DNA of 53,914 nt from Gammaproteobacteria bacterium. GTDB taxonomy: Bacteria > Pseudomonadota > Gammaproteobacteria > Poriferisulfidales > GCA-002705445. The notes beneath the pieces were generated by a model, which saw only the letters and a list, made by a program, of their open reading frames with translations, searched no databases and was not told the origin of the DNA. Below, piece by piece: positions 39,260 to 47,138 of the stretch. The stretch covers positions 1-53,914 of the forward strand of contig JABHAT010000007.1 of the NCBI GenBank assembly GCA_018674175.1, written 5' to 3'. The first letter of the stretch is position 1. Every line of letters begins with the position of its first letter. The position numbers and the translations under genes are program-made.

Positions 39260-39892
39260 ATGACCATATCGAAAGAAGAACTAGAAAAAATAATGGAAAA
39301 AAAATCTGGAATGCGAAGAGAAGCATATGACAGAAGAGCTGCTCAAGAAAATAAAGATGAAGTAAGCGCTAAAGCTTGCGAAAGATTTATGGAGCTTCCA
39401 GAGTACAAAAGTGCTCAAGTAATAATGTGGTATATAGATTGCAGATCAGAGACAAGAACAAAACCCCATCTTATTAAAGAAGTAGAGAAAGGAGAGAAAA
39501 GAATTATTGTCCCTTATTGTACCGAAGATGAAAATGGTGACAATAAACTTGGGCTATGGCATATGACAAGCTTAGAAGAAATGGTTGTTGGAAAATGGGA
39601 TATTTTGGAACCACCTAGAGAATTATGGGGCAATCCAGATAAAGAAGTAACTCCTCAAGAATTAGATATGATAATGGTTCCGGGTACAGGTTTTGATAAA
39701 ACTGGTGGCAGAATGGGGAATGGACAAGGTTATTATGATAGAACTATGGAGCAAGTTAGACCAGATTGTTCATTGATTGCTCTTTGTTATGAATCTCAAT
39801 TGTTTGATGAAATACTTGTTGCTCCACATGATGTATATATGGATAAGGTTGTTACTGAATCTGAAGTATATAAAGGAAAAGGAAGGGTATAA
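39260..39892 (+). CDS. 5-formyltetrahydrofolate cyclo-ligase family protein, first gene of the C1 operon
   Basis: Members convert 5-formyl-THF to 5,10-methenyl-THF with ATP. The 210 residues contain the family core VPGTGFD and GGRMGNGQGYYDR (about 152-173), plus a basic N-terminus (KKSGMRREAYDRR). A TTTGGAGAA Shine-Dalgarno precedes the ATG. In E. coli and relatives the corresponding gene (fau/ygfA) follows zapA and 6S RNA; here that site is empty and the homologue heads a serine-cycle operon. It may have an altered role with the Ftr-like protein, whose gene begins three bases after its stop. Confidence 0.88.
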   Translation: MTISKEELEKIMEKKSGMRREAYDRRAAQENKDEVSAKACERFMELPEYKSAQVIMWYIDCRSETRTKPHLIKEVEKGEKRIIVPYCTEDENGDNKLGLWHMTSLEEMVVGKWDILEPPRELWGNPDKEVTPQELDMIMVPGTGFDKTGGRMGNGQGYYDRTMEQVRPDCSLIALCYESQLFDEILVAPHDVYMDKVVTESEVYKGKGRV

Positions 39893-39895
39893 CTT

Positions 39896-40819
39896 ATGAC
39901 TGCTATTATAGACGATACCTATGCAGAAGCCTTTAAGAGTATGTACTCAGAGATACTTGTAACAGCTGTCAATAGGAAATGGCTTGATCATGCTATAAAT
40001 GCTGCTACTGGAAATGCATCGAGTAGTATTCTATGTGATTGTGAAGCTGGCTTAGATAGATATGTTGGTCCAGGTGGAGATGAAAGTGTGCAGACCCCAG
40101 ATGGTAGGCCAGGAGCAATAATACAATTACATATCCCAAAATTTTGGAAAGATCCAAAAAAACTTGAAAAAGCCGCTCTAGTAAGAATAAGTCAAAATAT
40201 ACTGACTTGCCCTACAACTTCATGTTTTAATTTAATGGAAGATAGTGAAGCATACTTTAAGCTTGGTAAGAAAGTTGCTTTTTTTGGGAATAGGTACCAG
40301 AAGAGAATAGAGAGATTTGGTAGAAAGATGTGGTGGATACCAATTTTAGGTGGTGAATTTATTATGGACCGTCGTTTTGGATACACTGATGGTTTAATGG
40401 GTGGCAACTTATGGTATTTTGGTAAAAATACAGAATCTGCATTAGCAGCAGCAGAAAAAGGTGTAGAGGCAATTCTACCTATTCCAAATGTTATAACTAC
40501 ATTCCCTGGTGGTATTGCTGGAAGTGGTTCTAAAGCTGGAAGTGATTATGATTTTACTATTGCAAGTACATATGAAAAATTTTGTCCTTTGTTGCAAGAT
40601 AATCCAGATGTCGAAGCTGCTCTTCCAGAAGGAGTAAATTCGGTAATGGAAATTATTATGAATGGTAAGGATATGGCTTCTATTATTGTAGCTACTCAAG
40701 CAGCCATAGATGCTTCTAAGGAAACAGAAGATTTACTAATGATATCTGCTGGAAATTATAATGGTAAACTTGGAAAAAGTTTTATATATCTTCACCCAGA
40801 TAAACAACCTAAAATTTAA
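39896..40819 (+). CDS. Ftr/FhcD-like formyltransferase (formylmethanofuran:H4MPT formyltransferase homologue)
   Basis: Full-length homologue (307 residues; archaeal Ftr is about 297) of the enzyme that moves formyl between methanofuran and tetrahydromethanopterin. Family landmarks appear in order: IDDTYAEAF (5-13), CEAGLDRYV, QTPDGRPGA, SQNILTCPTTSCF, GGEFIMDRRFGYTDGLMGGN, FPGGIAGSGSKAGS, LPEGVNSVMEIIMNG and SAGNYNGKLGKSFIYLH. In methylotrophs FhcD works in the FhcABCD complex. Here it is alone between folate enzymes, with no fhcABC, mch, mtdB or fae in view. It may act on formyl-THF or feed an Fhc complex encoded elsewhere. The homology is strong; the substrate is unknown. Confidence 0.85.
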   Translation: MTAIIDDTYAEAFKSMYSEILVTAVNRKWLDHAINAATGNASSSILCDCEAGLDRYVGPGGDESVQTPDGRPGAIIQLHIPKFWKDPKKLEKAALVRISQNILTCPTTSCFNLMEDSEAYFKLGKKVAFFGNRYQKRIERFGRKMWWIPILGGEFIMDRRFGYTDGLMGGNLWYFGKNTESALAAAEKGVEAILPIPNVITTFPGGIAGSGSKAGSDYDFTIASTYEKFCPLLQDNPDVEAALPEGVNSVMEIIMNGKDMASIIVATQAAIDASKETEDLLMISAGNYNGKLGKSFIYLHPDKQPKI

Positions 40820-40842
40820 AATACAATAACAAAATAATAGAT

Positions 40843-41712
40843 ATGAAGCATACAGAAAAAGGAACTTTAGTATTAGATGGTAAATTTGTTGCTCAAGAAA
40901 TGCAAAATACCATCAAGAAGAAAATTGACGATGCATGTGTAGAAATTACATTAGCTACCGTTTTGGTAGGAGATGACAAACCAAGTCAACTTTATGTAAA
41001 TAATAAACATAAACAGGCAACAGCATCATCAATCAAATCAATACATGTAAATCTTTCAGGTGATATTTCTCAAAAAGAGTTAGAGGATAAAATTACTGAG
41101 CTTGGTAATGATGCTTCTATAAATGGAATTCTCATTCAAATGCCTTTACCTAAAGGATTAAATGAAGATAGCATAATAGAAATGATTCCAACAAATAAAG
41201 ATGTTGATGGCCTGAAAGAGCAAAATCTTGGAAAATTAATAGTTGGCAATGATGTCCTAAGACCATGTACTCCTTTGGGAGTTATGAAATTAATAAAATA
41301 CTATAATCTTGAAACTTCTGGAAAAAAAGCTTTAGTAATTGGAAGGTCTAGATTAGTAGGAATGCCTCAAGTGATAATGTTTGGCTCAAAAGGTGTTGAT
41401 TGCACTGTTACTCTAGCTCATTCAAGGACTAAAAATTTAGATGAACTTATTTCGGAATCTGAAATTGTGGTTCCAGCTATAGGGGTTCCAAATATTATAA
41501 ATGCAAAAAATGTCAGAAAAGATGCTATTTTGCTTGATGTAGGTATAAGTAGTGATGGAAAAGGTATTCATGGAGATGTAGATTTTAATGGTGTTGATGG
41601 TATTGCTAAAGCGGTTACGCCAATGCCAGGAGGAACGGGCCCAATGACAGTTGCATGTTTACTCGAAAATACCATGAAAGCAGCCCAACTTCAGGGTATA
41701 ATCTCAAAATAA
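40843..41712 (+). CDS. folD: Bifunctional methylene-THF dehydrogenase / methenyl-THF cyclohydrolase (FolD)
   Basis: Interconverts methylene-, methenyl- and 10-formyl-THF. The 289 residues show the catalytic YxxxK in SQLYVNNKHKQA (about 48-59), QMPLPKGL, DVDGL, RPCTPLGVM, the nucleotide-binding GRSRLVGMP and TPMPGGTGPMT. GRSRLVGMP departs slightly from the usual GRSxIVGKP, which may affect cofactor preference. The gene takes the place mtdA has in the Methylobacterium serine-cycle cluster. A candidate structured RNA begins immediately after its stop. Confidence 0.93.
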   Translation: MKHTEKGTLVLDGKFVAQEMQNTIKKKIDDACVEITLATVLVGDDKPSQLYVNNKHKQATASSIKSIHVNLSGDISQKELEDKITELGNDASINGILIQMPLPKGLNEDSIIEMIPTNKDVDGLKEQNLGKLIVGNDVLRPCTPLGVMKLIKYYNLETSGKKALVIGRSRLVGMPQVIMFGSKGVDCTVTLAHSRTKNLDELISESEIVVPAIGVPNIINAKNVRKDAILLDVGISSDGKGIHGDVDFNGVDGIAKAVTPMPGGTGPMTVACLLENTMKAAQLQGIISK

Positions 41713-41842: not shown

Positions 41843-43081
41843 ATGCCTGGACAAAAACTATCATTCCCTGGAAGAAATTATTTATTTGCACCGGGTCCAA
41901 CACATATCCCTAATGTCGTACAAAATGCAATGAATGTGCCAATGGAAGATCATCGTGCTCCAGACTTTCCTGAGTTAGTTAAACCAATTCTTAGAGATTT
42001 AAAGAAAGTATTTTTAACAAAGACTGGTACTCCTTTCATCTTTCCTGCAACAGGTACAGCTGGATGGGAAATTGCATTAGCAAATACTCTGTCACCAGGT
42101 GATAAAATTCTAACTTCAAGATTTGGTCAATTTAGTCATCTTTGGTATGACTTAGCAAAAAGGATTGGGATAGAAGTTGAGTTAATTGATACAAAATGGG
42201 GTAATGGAATTGAAATAGAAAAATTTAAAAAAGCATTAGCAAAAGATAAAGATAAAAAAATAAAAGCTGTTGTTGTTTGTCATAATGAAACTGCAACTGG
42301 TGTAACAAGTGATATTGCAGGATTAAGAAAAGCTATGGATCAAGTCAAGCATCCAGCATTGCTCATGGTTGATGGTGTTAGTTCTATAGCAAGTGTTGAA
42401 TTTAGATTTGATAAATGGAAAGTAGATATTGCAGTAAGTGGATCACAAAAAGGTTTTATGCTTCCAGCTGGATTAGCAATTTTATGTTTTAGTAAAAAAG
42501 CTTTAGCTATGAGACATACTGCTGAATGTAAAAGATGCTTCCTTGATATTCAAGATCATATAAATACAAATAAGGATGGTTATTTTCCTTATACTCCTCC
42601 TGTAAATCTTTTAAGGGGTCTGAGAGTTGCTATTGATTTACTTCTAGAAGAAGGAATGGAAAATGTATTTGCCCGTCATAAAAGATTAGCGAACGGCGTT
42701 AGAGCAGCAATTAAAGCTTGGGGTTTAAAATTAGCGGCTTCGTCACCAAAATGGCAATCAGATACTGTTAGTGCAATATGGCTAGAACCAGGTTCTAAGA
42801 ATAATCCAAATGGTAAAAAAGCTATGGAAGTAATTAGTATTGCTTACCACACTTATAATATTTCGCTTGGTGCTGGTCTTACACAAGTTGCTGGAAAAGT
42901 TTTCAGAATTGGACACCTTGGTGATAATAATGAAGCTAGAATGATGGCCGCGTTGGGAGCAGTTGAAATGGCTATGATTGATGCTGGAATAAAGTTTACA
43001 CCGGGCAGTGGTACAGGTGCAGCAGCAAAATATTGGACAAGTAATCCTAATAAAGCACTGAAAAAAAAGAAGAAAAAATAA
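41843..43081 (+). CDS. sgaA: Serine-glyoxylate aminotransferase
   Basis: Transfers the amino group of serine to glyoxylate, giving hydroxypyruvate and glycine: the entry to the carbon-skeleton half of the serine cycle. The 412 residues are a class V aminotransferase with the PLP lysine K203 in SGSQKGFMLPAG, the start GRNYLFAPGPTHIPN and a lysine-only C-terminal tail. An alanine-glyoxylate activity is possible for the family, but the operon fixes the role. Codons look typical of the window. Confidence 0.92.
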   Translation: MPGQKLSFPGRNYLFAPGPTHIPNVVQNAMNVPMEDHRAPDFPELVKPILRDLKKVFLTKTGTPFIFPATGTAGWEIALANTLSPGDKILTSRFGQFSHLWYDLAKRIGIEVELIDTKWGNGIEIEKFKKALAKDKDKKIKAVVVCHNETATGVTSDIAGLRKAMDQVKHPALLMVDGVSSIASVEFRFDKWKVDIAVSGSQKGFMLPAGLAILCFSKKALAMRHTAECKRCFLDIQDHINTNKDGYFPYTPPVNLLRGLRVAIDLLLEEGMENVFARHKRLANGVRAAIKAWGLKLAASSPKWQSDTVSAIWLEPGSKNNPNGKKAMEVISIAYHTYNISLGAGLTQVAGKVFRIGHLGDNNEARMMAALGAVEMAMIDAGIKFTPGSGTGAAAKYWTSNPNKALKKKKKK

Positions 43082-43102: not shown

Positions 43103-44050
43103 ATGAGTCATAAAATATACGAACAGACTTCTAGTAGAGTTCAAAGAAGTGAATTAGCTGTTCCAGGATCAAATCCAAAAATGTTTGAAAAAGCATTGAA
43201 TAGTGATGTTGATTTTGTTTTTTTAGATCTAGAAGATGCTGTTGCACCAGATGACAAAGAGGTAGCGAGAAAAAATGTTATTGAGGCACTTAACGATTTA
43301 GATTGGCAAGGTAATGGCAAGACAGTTTCTGTTCGAATAAATAGTATTGACACACACTATATGTACAGAGATGTGGTTGAGGTAGTTGAACAAGCTGGAG
43401 AGAATCTTGATACTATCTTACTTCCTAAAGCTGGTACAGCTTCAGATATTTATATGTTATCAGCAATGCTTAATCAGATAGAAACAGCTAAAAGCTTAAA
43501 AAAACGTATTGGAATCGAAGTTTTAATTGAAACAACTTTAGGCATGGCCAATGTGATGGATATCGCTAAAAGTGGTCGCGAAGAAAGACTTGAGGCTATG
43601 CATTTTGGAGTTGCTGATTATGCTGCAAGTTGTCGTGCGCGAACAACTGTTATAGGCGGTTTAAATCCTGATTATCCAGGAGATCAATGGCATGCAGATT
43701 TATCTCAAATGTTAGTAGCGTGTAGAGCTTATGGTTTAAGAGCTATTGATGGTCCATTTGGTGACTTTAAAGATCCAGCAAGTTACACATTAGCTGCTAA
43801 AAGAGCTGCTGCTCTTGGATTTGAAGGGAAGTGGGCAATTCATCCTTCACAAATTGAATTAGCTAATGAGGTATTCACTCCCCCACCAGCTGAAGTTGAT
43901 AAAGCAAAAAGAATATTAATTGCTTTAGACGAGGCTGCAAAAAAAGGGCAAGGAGCCGCATCATTAGATGGAAGATTAATAGATGCTGCGTCAGCAAAAA
44001 TGGCAGAGAATATTGTTGCAACTGATAAAGCAATTAATTCAAAAAAGTAA
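43103..44050 (+). CDS. mclA: Malyl-CoA lyase
   Basis: Splits malyl-CoA to acetyl-CoA and glyoxylate, the last step of the serine cycle. The 315 residues belong to the HpcH/HpaI-citE superfamily: RSELAVPGSNPKMFEKAL (about 14-31), the metal-binding FLDLEDAVAPDDK and MHFGVADYAASCRARTT. The long form with the C-terminal FTPPPAEVDKAKRI segment is that of malyl-CoA/beta-methylmalyl-CoA lyases. Preceded by ATAAGGAT and flanked by sgaA and malate thiokinase genes. Confidence 0.92.
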   Translation: MSHKIYEQTSSRVQRSELAVPGSNPKMFEKALNSDVDFVFLDLEDAVAPDDKEVARKNVIEALNDLDWQGNGKTVSVRINSIDTHYMYRDVVEVVEQAGENLDTILLPKAGTASDIYMLSAMLNQIETAKSLKKRIGIEVLIETTLGMANVMDIAKSGREERLEAMHFGVADYAASCRARTTVIGGLNPDYPGDQWHADLSQMLVACRAYGLRAIDGPFGDFKDPASYTLAAKRAAALGFEGKWAIHPSQIELANEVFTPPPAEVDKAKRILIALDEAAKKGQGAASLDGRLIDAASAKMAENIVATDKAINSKK

Positions 44051-44076: not shown

Positions 44077-45240
44077 TTGGACATACATGAATATCAAGCG
44101 AAGGAAATATTATCAAATTATGACGTGCAAATATTAGAAGGAAAGCTTGCGGTCAAAACATCAGAAGCTGTAGATGCATTTAATAAAATAGATTCTGATA
44201 TTTGTGTTGTAAAAGCTCAAGTTCATTCAGGAGCTAGAGGTAAAGCTGGCGGAATTATACTTTGTAAGACTGAAGAAGAAATCAAAATTGCCGCAGATAA
44301 ATTGCTGGGAACATATTTAAAGACTATTCAAACAGGCGAGCAAGGTAAGATAATAGAAAAATTATATATAGAATCTGGATGTGATATAGATAGAGAGATT
44401 TATTTGGCTTTTGTAATGGATAGGGGCTCACAACGAATAGTTATGGTTGCTTCTGCTGAAGGCGGTATGTCTATAGAAGAGTTGGCAGTAGAGAAACCAG
44501 ATTCGATTAAAAAAATAGAAATTGATCCTGTGGTTGGGCTCACTAGTTTTCAAGCTAGAGAGATGAGTTTTGCATTAGAGCTTCCTAAAGAAGCTATAGC
44601 AAAATCCGTTAAACTATTAATGGGTTGTTACAAAGCTATGGTTGAATTAGATATGAATATGTTAGAAATAAACCCATTAGTTCTTACGGGAGATAAAAAT
44701 TTAATAGCATTAGATGCAAAGATAAGTTTTGATGACAATGCTTTGTTTAGACATCCAAATATTCATGCTCTTAATGATAATACTCAAAAAGATCCAAGAG
44801 AAGTGGCAGCATCTAAAGATGACCTAAGTTACATTGGTTTGGATGGTGATATTGGATGCATTATTAATGGAGCTGGTTTAGCAATGGCTTCTATGGATAT
44901 GATCAAATATTGTGGCGGCGAGCCTGCAAACTTTTTAGATATAGGTGGAGGAGCTTCTCCAGAAAGAGTAGGAAAAGCGTTCGAATTAGTTCTCGCAGAT
45001 AAAAATGTAAAAGCTATGCTTGTAAATGTATACGCTGGTATAAATAGATGTGACTGGATAGCTGAAGGTCTAGTTCAGGTTATTCCAAAAGTAGATTTAA
45101 AAATTCCTTTAATAGTAAGGTTATCGGGAACAAATGTGGAAGAAGGTATAAAAATTTTAAAAGAAAGCGGACTTCCAATTATTTTAGCTGACACTTTGAA
45201 AGATGCGGCGCAAAAAGCAGTTGATGCTGCTAAACAATAA
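44077..45240 (+). CDS. mtkA: Malate-CoA ligase (malate thiokinase), beta subunit
   Basis: ATP-grasp subunit that activates malate to malyl-CoA. The start is TTG 44077 with AAGGGG upstream; the protein begins MDIHEYQAKEILSNYDV as SucC-type subunits do. 387 residues, with an ATP-grasp domain (about 1-240) and a CoA-ligase domain (GGGASPERV near 292). By sequence alone it could be succinyl-CoA synthetase SucC; placement between malyl-CoA lyase and the alpha subunit favours malate. Confidence 0.88.
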   Translation: MDIHEYQAKEILSNYDVQILEGKLAVKTSEAVDAFNKIDSDICVVKAQVHSGARGKAGGIILCKTEEEIKIAADKLLGTYLKTIQTGEQGKIIEKLYIESGCDIDREIYLAFVMDRGSQRIVMVASAEGGMSIEELAVEKPDSIKKIEIDPVVGLTSFQAREMSFALELPKEAIAKSVKLLMGCYKAMVELDMNMLEINPLVLTGDKNLIALDAKISFDDNALFRHPNIHALNDNTQKDPREVAASKDDLSYIGLDGDIGCIINGAGLAMASMDMIKYCGGEPANFLDIGGGASPERVGKAFELVLADKNVKAMLVNVYAGINRCDWIAEGLVQVIPKVDLKIPLIVRLSGTNVEEGIKILKESGLPIILADTLKDAAQKAVDAAKQ

Positions 45241-45255
45241 TAAAAGGGGAAAATA

Positions 45256-46146
45256 ATGTCAGTTTTATTAAATAAGAATACAAAAGTTTTAGTGCAAGGA
45301 ATTACAGGAAGGATAGGTAATTTTCATGCAGAAGAAATGATTGCTTATGGAACAAACGTAGTAGCTGGTGTAACTCCAGGAAAAGGCGGAACAACTCATC
45401 TTGGTAAACCAGTTTTTAATACAGTGAAAGAGGCCGTTGAGGCGACAGGTGCTGAAGCAACTATAGTTTTCGTCCCAGCTGCAGCTGCAGCTGATGGTAT
45501 TATGGAAGCAGCCGACGCAGGAATAAAATATGCAGTTTCTATAACAGATGGAATTCCTGCTCACGATATGATTAAAGTTAAAAGATATCTACTTAGATAC
45601 AAAAAAGAAGAAAGACTAATATTAACAGGGCCAAATTGTGCTGGAACTATTACTCCAGGTGAAGCTATGATCGGTATTATGCCAGGGCATATTTATATGC
45701 CAGGAGATGTTGGTGTTATCGGAAGATCAGGAACACTAGGTTATGAAGCTGCTTCACAAATGAAAGAAGAAGGAATTGGAATTTCAACTAGTGTTGGAAT
45801 TGGTGGAGACCCAGTAAATGGAAGTTCCCATAAAGATATTTTAGAATTATTTAATGAAGATGATAAAACAAAAGCAGTTATGATAATTGGTGAAATTGGT
45901 GGGCCACAAGAAGCTGAAGCCGCTGAATACGTTCAAAAAAATATGAAAAAGCCTGTTGTAGCTTATATAGCTGGATTAACAGCTCCAAAGGGAAGAACAA
46001 TGGGACATGCGGGAGCAATTGTTTCCGGTAAAGGCGAAAGTGCAGCTGAAAAAGTAGAGCTTCTTCAAGAGGCTGGAATACATATCGTCCCAAATCCTTC
46101 GGAAATGGGAAGTAAAATGAAAGAAGTAATGGATAAACATTTATAA
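45256..46146 (+). CDS. mtkB: Malate-CoA ligase (malate thiokinase), alpha subunit
   Basis: Carries the CoA-binding fold and the phosphohistidine, H251 in MGHAGAIVSG, which relays phosphate between the two subunits. The 296 residues show VQGITGRIGNFHAEEM (about 13-28), GPNCAGTITPGE and GRSGTLGYEA. GRIGNFHAEEM is the form common in MtkB; SucD usually reads GxQGxFH. Follows mtkA by 15 bases with an AAAAGGGGAA site. Confidence 0.9.
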   Translation: MSVLLNKNTKVLVQGITGRIGNFHAEEMIAYGTNVVAGVTPGKGGTTHLGKPVFNTVKEAVEATGAEATIVFVPAAAAADGIMEAADAGIKYAVSITDGIPAHDMIKVKRYLLRYKKEERLILTGPNCAGTITPGEAMIGIMPGHIYMPGDVGVIGRSGTLGYEAASQMKEEGIGISTSVGIGGDPVNGSSHKDILELFNEDDKTKAVMIIGEIGGPQEAEAAEYVQKNMKKPVVAYIAGLTAPKGRTMGHAGAIVSGKGESAAEKVELLQEAGIHIVPNPSEMGSKMKEVMDKHL

Positions 46147-46166
46147 AATTTTAATTGGGGAAAGTG

Positions 46167-47138
46167 ATGAGTAAACCTACAGTATTAGTTACAAGAAAAT
46201 GGCCTGCAGAAGTTGAGGCAGAACTAAAAACAAAATATGACGTGACATTTAATGAAAGTGATATAGCAATGACTATACCAGAGCTTCAGAAAGCATTTCA
46301 GAACTATGATTGCGTGTGCCCAACTGTAACAGATCCTATTAACGAAGAAGTCCTTTCAGTTGAAAATAAAAAAGCTAAAATTATCGCAAGTTTTGGTGTG
46401 GGTTTTAATCATATTGATTTAGATGCAGCTAAAAAAGAAGGTTTGGTGGTTACAAATACACCAGAAGTTCTTACAGCATGCACAGCAGATATAGCAATGA
46501 CATTACTATTAAGTGCTGCTAGAAGAACAGGTGAAGGCGAAAGAGAATTACGCTCTGGAGAATGGGCTGGCTGGAGACCAACTCATCTTAGAGGCACACA
46601 GGTAACAGGTAAAACTTTGGGTTGTATTGGATTTGGAAGAATAGCCCAAGCTACAGCGGATAGAGCACACTTCGGTTTTGGAATGAAAATTATATTTTCT
46701 GACCCATATATGCCATCAGATGAAGTTATAAAAAAATATAGTGCAACTCCTTGCTCGAGTGTAGAAGAAGTACTCGAAAAAGCTGACTTTGTTTCTATTC
46801 ATTGTCCCGGTGGTGAAAGCACATATCATTTAATGAATAAAGAAAGAATTGGAATGATGAAAAAAGGTGCTTATTTAATAAATTCAGCAAGAGGTGATGT
46901 AATTGATAATGATGCGCTGATAGAGGCATTAAAAAATAAAACTATTGCTGGGGCAGGATTAGATGTATTTGAAGGAGAGCCTGAACTTAACCCAGGTTTT
47001 CTAGAATGCGAAAATGCAGTGTTACTTCCTCATTTAGGAAGTGCTTCAATTGAGACAAGAATTGCTATGGGTATGAGAGTGTTAGAAAATATGGAGGCAT
47101 ATTATAATAATAAAGAACCAGGCGATAGAGTAGCATAA
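46167..47138 (+). CDS. hprA: Hydroxypyruvate / glyoxylate reductase, D-2-hydroxyacid dehydrogenase family
   Basis: Reduces hydroxypyruvate to D-glycerate, the step after SgaA. The ATG at 46167 is chosen because GGGG at 46157-46160 sits six bases upstream; a TTG at 46155 would consume that site. The 323 residues have the Rossmann motif GFGRIAQ (about 155-161) and the catalytic Arg/Glu/His set in NSARGDV, FEGEP and LLPHLGSAS. It closes the operon; glycerate kinase, enolase, PEP carboxylase and glyA must be elsewhere. Confidence 0.9.
   Translation: MSKPTVLVTRKWPAEVEAELKTKYDVTFNESDIAMTIPELQKAFQNYDCVCPTVTDPINEEVLSVENKKAKIIASFGVGFNHIDLDAAKKEGLVVTNTPEVLTACTADIAMTLLLSAARRTGEGERELRSGEWAGWRPTHLRGTQVTGKTLGCIGFGRIAQATADRAHFGFGMKIIFSDPYMPSDEVIKKYSATPCSSVEEVLEKADFVSIHCPGGESTYHLMNKERIGMMKKGAYLINSARGDVIDNDALIEALKNKTIAGAGLDVFEGEPELNPGFLECENAVLLPHLGSASIETRIAMGMRVLENMEAYYNNKEPGDRVA

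Follow-up and report, generated by a model that had tools for sequence, protein, structure and literature searches.

A divergent formylmethanofuran formyltransferase homolog (Ftr2), encoded between a 5-formyltetrahydrofolate cyclo-ligase (FCL) and FolD, probably forms together with these two enzymes a formate-free bridge leading from the methanofuran/H4MPT pool of C1 units to the folate pool, a reading in which we infer the donor, the acceptor and the direction of formyl transfer from sequence. Formate-THF ligase and free formate connect the two pools in the model methylotroph. If the proposal is true, a methanofuran-to-folate formyltransferase would be a direct link between the two C1 cofactor systems, account for the feeding of folate in serine-cycle bacteria devoid of FtfL, shift the branch point between assimilation and dissimilation from formate to formyl-methanofuran and lend itself to synthetic C1 assimilation as a module independent of formate. 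A paralog of Planctomycetota and marine Gammaproteobacteria which family models label as ordinary FhcD would thereby be assigned a function. In the open-access literature searched, no description of a methanofuran-to-folate transfer or of a folate-linked second ftr was found, earlier notice being possible.

The gene cluster and the Ftr2 protein

The window, i.e. the whole stretch of 53,914 nucleotides analyzed here, belongs to a genome of 1.08 Mb (30 contigs, 88% complete) from the Poriferisulfidales, an order of small-genome marine bacteria related to sponge symbionts that have been described as sulfur oxidizers. It harbors the following genes:

39260..39892, + strand: 5-formyltetrahydrofolate cyclo-ligase (FCL), 210 aa; TIGR02727 126.8 bits, cut-off 84.9
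39896..40819, + strand: Ftr2, divergent formylmethanofuran formyltransferase homolog, 307 aa; PF01913 and PF02741; clade of its own
40843..41712, + strand: FolD, methylene-THF dehydrogenase / methenyl-THF cyclohydrolase, 289 aa; FolD families
41843..43081, + strand: class-V aminotransferase, probable serine-glyoxylate aminotransferase; PF00266; closest NCBIfam model BhcA 560 bits, cut-off of 650 not reached
43103..44050, + strand: HpcH/HpaI-family lyase, probable malyl-CoA lyase; PF03328 122 bits; CitE/malyl-CoA lyase models below cut-off
44077..45240, + strand: malate-CoA ligase beta subunit (MtkA); PRK14046 615.5 bits, cut-off 604
45256..46146, + strand: malate/succinate-CoA ligase alpha subunit (MtkB); PRK05678 424.9 bits, cut-off 336
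46155..47138, + strand: D-2-hydroxyacid dehydrogenase, probable hydroxypyruvate reductase (HprA); PF02826/PF00389; glyoxylate reductase model 279 bits, below cut-off

The trio recognized in the first-pass annotation is confirmed by family models and fold, with all three reading frames on the plus strand and gaps of 3 bases between FCL and Ftr2 and of 23 bases between Ftr2 and FolD. FCL scores above the equivalog cut-off and carries the GYYDR signature of 5-formyl-THF cyclo-ligases (RMGNGQGYYDR, of which GNGQGYYDR was aligned with solved structures). It is the sole copy found in the source genome and single-copy across the order, where PF01812 has one match per genome, located beside Ftr2 in every Ftr2-bearing genome; being the only copy, FCL may serve a housekeeping role as well. 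FolD aligns to 3p2o with 200 bits and retains the YVxxK motif. All 17 genomes of the order with Ftr2 contain the FCL-Ftr2-FolD trio, an arrangement that is hence not due to chance. Sequence identities to the window proteins across the order (loci L013-L019) amount to 69–78% for FCL, 70–78% for Ftr2 and 47–51% for FolD, whose lower conservation looks as though it had been replaced in some lines.

Directly 3′ of the trio and on the same strand, homologs for four core steps of the serine cycle are encoded, namely the aminotransferase, hydroxypyruvate reductase, malate-CoA ligase and malyl-CoA lyase. The trio sits where mtdA-fch would be placed in a serine-cycle cluster, as had been noted from the sequence of the window.

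Ftr2 is a full-length Ftr homolog, as claimed at first sight of the sequence: both lobes are detected (PF01913/PF02741, 144.7 and 161.2 bits), and the AlphaFold model (pLDDT 93.7) superposes on Methanopyrus kandleri Ftr (1ftr) with TM-scores of 0.88/0.91 and 2.0 Å, the only strong PDB matches of the model being four Ftr/FhcD structures. The family models are passed, narrowly so the FhcD equivalog TIGR03119 with 302.6 bits (cut-off 292.6; 410.9 bits for the true FhcD of the same genome), and PRK02114 with 320.8 bits (cut-off 297). Glu245 of M. kandleri Ftr, which we take to be its catalytic residue, aligns with Glu252 of Ftr2 and is invariant in 70 aligned sequences. Ftr2 and FhcD share this glutamate and 45 other near-invariant columns, while about 29 columns differ consistently between the two. 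These differences include a short loop inserted in Ftr2 at approximately residues 79–86, in which Pro, Lys/Arg, Phe and Lys are conserved.

Scores against a profile of the window type are bimodal, with 418–659 versus 167–229 bits and none between, and two further searches, of the Pseudomonadota and Planctomycetota samples, divide in the same way. In a tree of 127 sequences, 88 Ftr2 proteins lie on one side of a single branch (SH-aLRT 100, length 1.56 changes per column), and FhcD together with archaeal Ftr on the opposite side, so that the folate-operon copies, for which a tree had been called for, form their own clade. Its members stem from Gammaproteobacteria, Planctomycetota and one Methylomirabilis MAG. 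With midpoint rooting, the deepest branches are planctomycetotal and most gammaproteobacterial copies are nested among them, which suggests lateral transfer. A MAG labeled Pirellulaceae (L059) contains an Ftr2 of the gammaproteobacterial type (77% identity), upstream of which FCL was not found, and represents either contamination or lateral transfer.

Methanofuran genes, FCL linkage and FtfL across genomes

The neighbors of Ftr2 are FCL and FolD, and no fhcA, fhcB or fhcC is found alongside. A second Ftr, 40% identical to the window copy, is located on contig C23 of the same genome (L206) within the gene order fwdD-fwdB-fwdA-ftr-fwdC. That fhcABC, mch, mtdB and fae are missing reflects the bounds of the window, and the accompanying idea of an organism without methanofuran/H4MPT machinery finds no support, given the operon on contig C23 and mch, fae and mtdB of relatives. 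Each of the order's 11 high-quality genomes has a match in the Ftr2 range, and nearly all of them carry both Ftr copies. Mch was detected in 18/20 genomes of the order and not found in the 88% complete source assembly; in the congener G007 it is accompanied by Fae, an Mpt_N-domain dehydrogenase (MtdB/MtdA family), beta-RFAP synthase, an MptN-like ligase and an MfnD-like ligase. Since the order, with fae, an MtdB-type dehydrogenase, mch and H4MPT biosynthesis genes in relatives, possesses the H4MPT/methanofuran route, the window Ftr2 is an additional Ftr.

In G007, fwdD-B-A-ftr-fwdC is followed by genes for an FdxA-type ferredoxin, a flavoprotein oxidoreductase and a metal-independent carbonic-anhydrase homolog (L142, 6291–13821). 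Both this locus and L206 are archaeal-type formylmethanofuran dehydrogenase operons in marine Gammaproteobacteria. FwdB of G007 aligns over its whole length to the archaeal tungsten FwdB 5t5i_B (376 bits) and weakly to 6s6y_B of the M. extorquens hydrolase complex (48 bits). FwdB of the source genome contains the [4Fe-4S] motif CTFCGCCCDD and the metal-site cysteine in SVCHGPS. An FwdD-like reading frame is present in L206, and the FwdD model matches the congener with 66 bits, below the archaeal cut-off of 175. FwdB of this kind occurs in 15/18 searched genomes of the order and in 0/13 FhcD-only Pseudomonadota searched (best match 135 bits). The methanofuran branch in most of the order is predicted to be a dehydrogenase converting formyl-methanofuran to CO2 with no free formate, for the source genome because its FwdB keeps the metal-ligand motif. 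Formate absence is not general among Ftr2 genomes, since in four Ftr2-bearing gammaproteobacteria (G013, L197; G022, L198; G020, L199; G033, L200) the Fwd type is replaced by a B subunit that shows no metal-ligand motif and resembles the Fhc hydrolase; despite this, FtfL was not found in these four genomes. In the planctomycetotal genome G042 (L203, 5088–6359) an in-frame TGA lies exactly at the metal-ligand position of FwdB (TSL-TGA-HGPT), making it a probable selenocysteine FwdB, and a TGA inside a longer frame is seen in nine other FwdB matches.

Among the 86 assessable loci from Gammaproteobacteria, Planctomycetota and the Methylomirabilis MAG, FCL directly precedes Ftr2 in the same orientation in 59, and FolD follows at a distance of up to 1.5 kb in 30. 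The 27 loci in which no FCL adjoins Ftr2 belong mostly to one Gemmataceae branch. In the planctomycetotal loci inspected, Ftr2 has no linkage to serine-cycle genes. The FCL-Ftr2 pair is thus the widely conserved unit, to which FolD and the serine-cycle genes are attached in gammaproteobacterial lines.

Neither FtfL nor Fch was detected above cut-off in any of the 20 genomes of the order, including all 17 bearing Ftr2, absence counts of this kind being limited by draft genomes that may miss genes. Among 50 other Ftr2 genomes, three of which seem to be repeats of genomes of the order, two contain FtfL above cut-off. A sample of 398 genomes provided 17 Pseudomonadota with FhcD only, 16 of which contain FtfL, and the comparison of 1/29 with 16/17 yields a Fisher p of 3e-10 with relatedness ignored. 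Within the Planctomycetota sample the contrast is weak (1/12 with Ftr2 versus 13/35 with FhcD only, p = 0.08); in both comparisons the p-values overstate independence, as the genomes are related. Ftr2 is found together with a full-length FtfL in G034 (L067, Methylococcaceae UBA2778) and G047, which are either useful exceptions or mixed MAGs.

Proposed formyl transfer and rival explanations

Ordinary Ftr formylates N5 of the pterin. Ftr2 is a candidate formyl-methanofuran:tetrahydrofolate N5-formyltransferase, which would keep formyl-methanofuran as donor and accept tetrahydrofolate instead of H4MPT. Because ordinary Ftr acts on N5, the product would be 5-formyl-THF, exactly the substrate of the neighboring FCL. 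In the driving step towards assimilation, FCL would, judging from its family, convert 5-formyl-THF and ATP to 5,10-methenyl-THF, which FolD would reduce to methylene-THF, thereby supplying serine hydroxymethyltransferase and the adjacent serine cycle, while the cyclohydrolase activity of FolD could supply 10-formyl-THF. Ftr2-FCL-FolD would in this way replace FtfL-Fch-MtdA, and the branch point would be formyl-methanofuran rather than formate, with oxidation to CO2 by Fwd as one fate and transfer to folate by Ftr2 as the other. Such a single chain would account for the arrangement of the genes, for an additional Ftr and for the lack of FtfL and Fch. The retention of ordinary Ftr beside an Ftr2 of a deep separate clade argues against redundancy. 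In favor of the proposal are also the recurrent FCL linkage and the FtfL contrast with FhcD-only Pseudomonadota, whereas the weak contrast in Planctomycetota, the two genomes with both Ftr2 and FtfL, the loci without adjacent FCL, the possible housekeeping role of FCL and the B subunits devoid of the ligand motif weigh against it. Of the two roles considered in the first-pass annotation, folate-linked formyl transfer is the best reading, as FtfL and Fch are absent and serine-cycle genes adjoin, whereas hydrolysis of formyl-THF is disfavored by the missing FtfL and by an adjacent cyclo-ligase driven by ATP towards methenyl-THF. FCL, there regarded as recycling 5-formyl-THF, is more likely to catalyze a step of the pathway.

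The chain could also run backwards, with Ftr2 moving the formyl group from 5-formyl-THF to methanofuran and Fwd oxidizing folate-bound C1 units to CO2; 5-formyl-THF would then be made from methenyl-THF by serine hydroxymethyltransferase, and FCL would merely salvage the excess. Ftr reactions are near equilibrium, the order possesses the Fwd-type dehydrogenase, the ferredoxin and the flavoprotein oxidoreductase, and the planctomycetotal copies without serine-cycle linkage agree with such a flow. It is nevertheless considered unlikely, as an ATP-driven FCL alongside Ftr2 would create a futile cycle, the gammaproteobacterial trio is embedded in a serine-cycle cluster serving assimilation, and the folate pool lacks FtfL as its usual point of entry. 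Similarly improbable is a role of Ftr2 as another formylmethanofuran:H4MPT formyltransferase, possibly differing in kinetics or regulation, which lies next to FCL and FolD by mere clustering of C1 genes. The score just above the FhcD equivalog cut-off, the retained fold and catalytic glutamate and the synthesis of H4MPT in these organisms are consistent with it, but an ordinary Ftr is already there, the branch to Ftr2 is long, the FCL linkage recurs across distant groups and the loss of FtfL would be left unexplained.

Little probability is given to a different formyl donor, e.g. formyl-H4MPT directly, or a different acceptor, with Ftr2 still feeding 5-formyl-THF to FCL or removing it. The FCL linkage points to the product side only, the donor being taken from homology, and the consistent Ftr2-specific changes and the inserted loop indicate an altered surface; however, the columns common to Ftr2 and FhcD include the catalytic glutamate, which favors the donor chemistry of ordinary Ftr. 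Although family models name Ftr2 FhcD, a displaced fhcD left as the sole Ftr after break-up of an fhc cluster is ruled out by the second Ftr that this genome encodes in its fwd operon and by the position of Ftr2 outside FhcD and archaeal Ftr, and the occurrence of both copies in nearly all high-quality genomes of the order speaks against it too. The presence of fhcABC, mch and H4MPT biosynthesis genes together with a branching inside ordinary FhcD had been named as the signs of such a displacement; the first sign did turn up, with the fwd genes of this genome and with mch and H4MPT biosynthesis in relatives, and the second did not. An organism without H4MPT is likewise ruled out for the order by mch, fae and H4MPT biosynthesis genes in relatives.

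Beyond the proposed transfer from formyl-methanofuran to folate, Fwd, Ftr2, FCL and FolD might conceivably, as a long shot, constitute a CO2-to-methylene-THF module running from CO2 via formyl-methanofuran and folate into the serine cycle. If true, this would be a hybrid of the archaeal and bacterial methyl branches needing neither formate nor formate-THF ligase.

Comparison with known systems

Archaeal Ftr (1ftr, 1m5h, 1m5s) and Ftr2 have the fold, both lobes and the equivalent of Glu245 in common, at 40–42% identity. Ftr2 differs by its separate clade, the loop at about residues 79–86, the approximately 29 changed columns and its folate-gene neighbors. Bacterial FhcD of the Fhc formyltransferase/hydrolase complex (6s6y_D) is of the same family and fold (TM 0.85, 37% identity to the solved chain), whereas Ftr2 lacks fhcABC neighbors, shares its genome with a true FhcD and falls outside the FhcD clade.

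The gene order fwdDBA-ftr-fwdC with intact FwdB motifs, as in the Fwd operon described here, has also been reported for Hakuba Actinobacteria (PMC7325909), the closest counterpart in the literature. According to the parts of that report considered here, those genomes differ in that fhs is present, H4MPT biosynthesis is absent and no Ftr2-FCL pair is described. The Alphaproteobacteria of the TMED127/Methylaequorales paper, which are said to match M. extorquens, are a different group.

In M. extorquens the branch point between assimilation and dissimilation is formate (review, PMC8879981). The FtfL-Fch-MtdA route of the Methylorubrum extorquens serine cycle resembles the Ftr2-FCL-FolD route proposed here in its serine-cycle neighbors and in the methylene-THF that would be produced at the expense of one ATP. 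In contrast to that route, FtfL and Fch are absent here, and the C1 unit would enter as formyl-methanofuran instead of formate.
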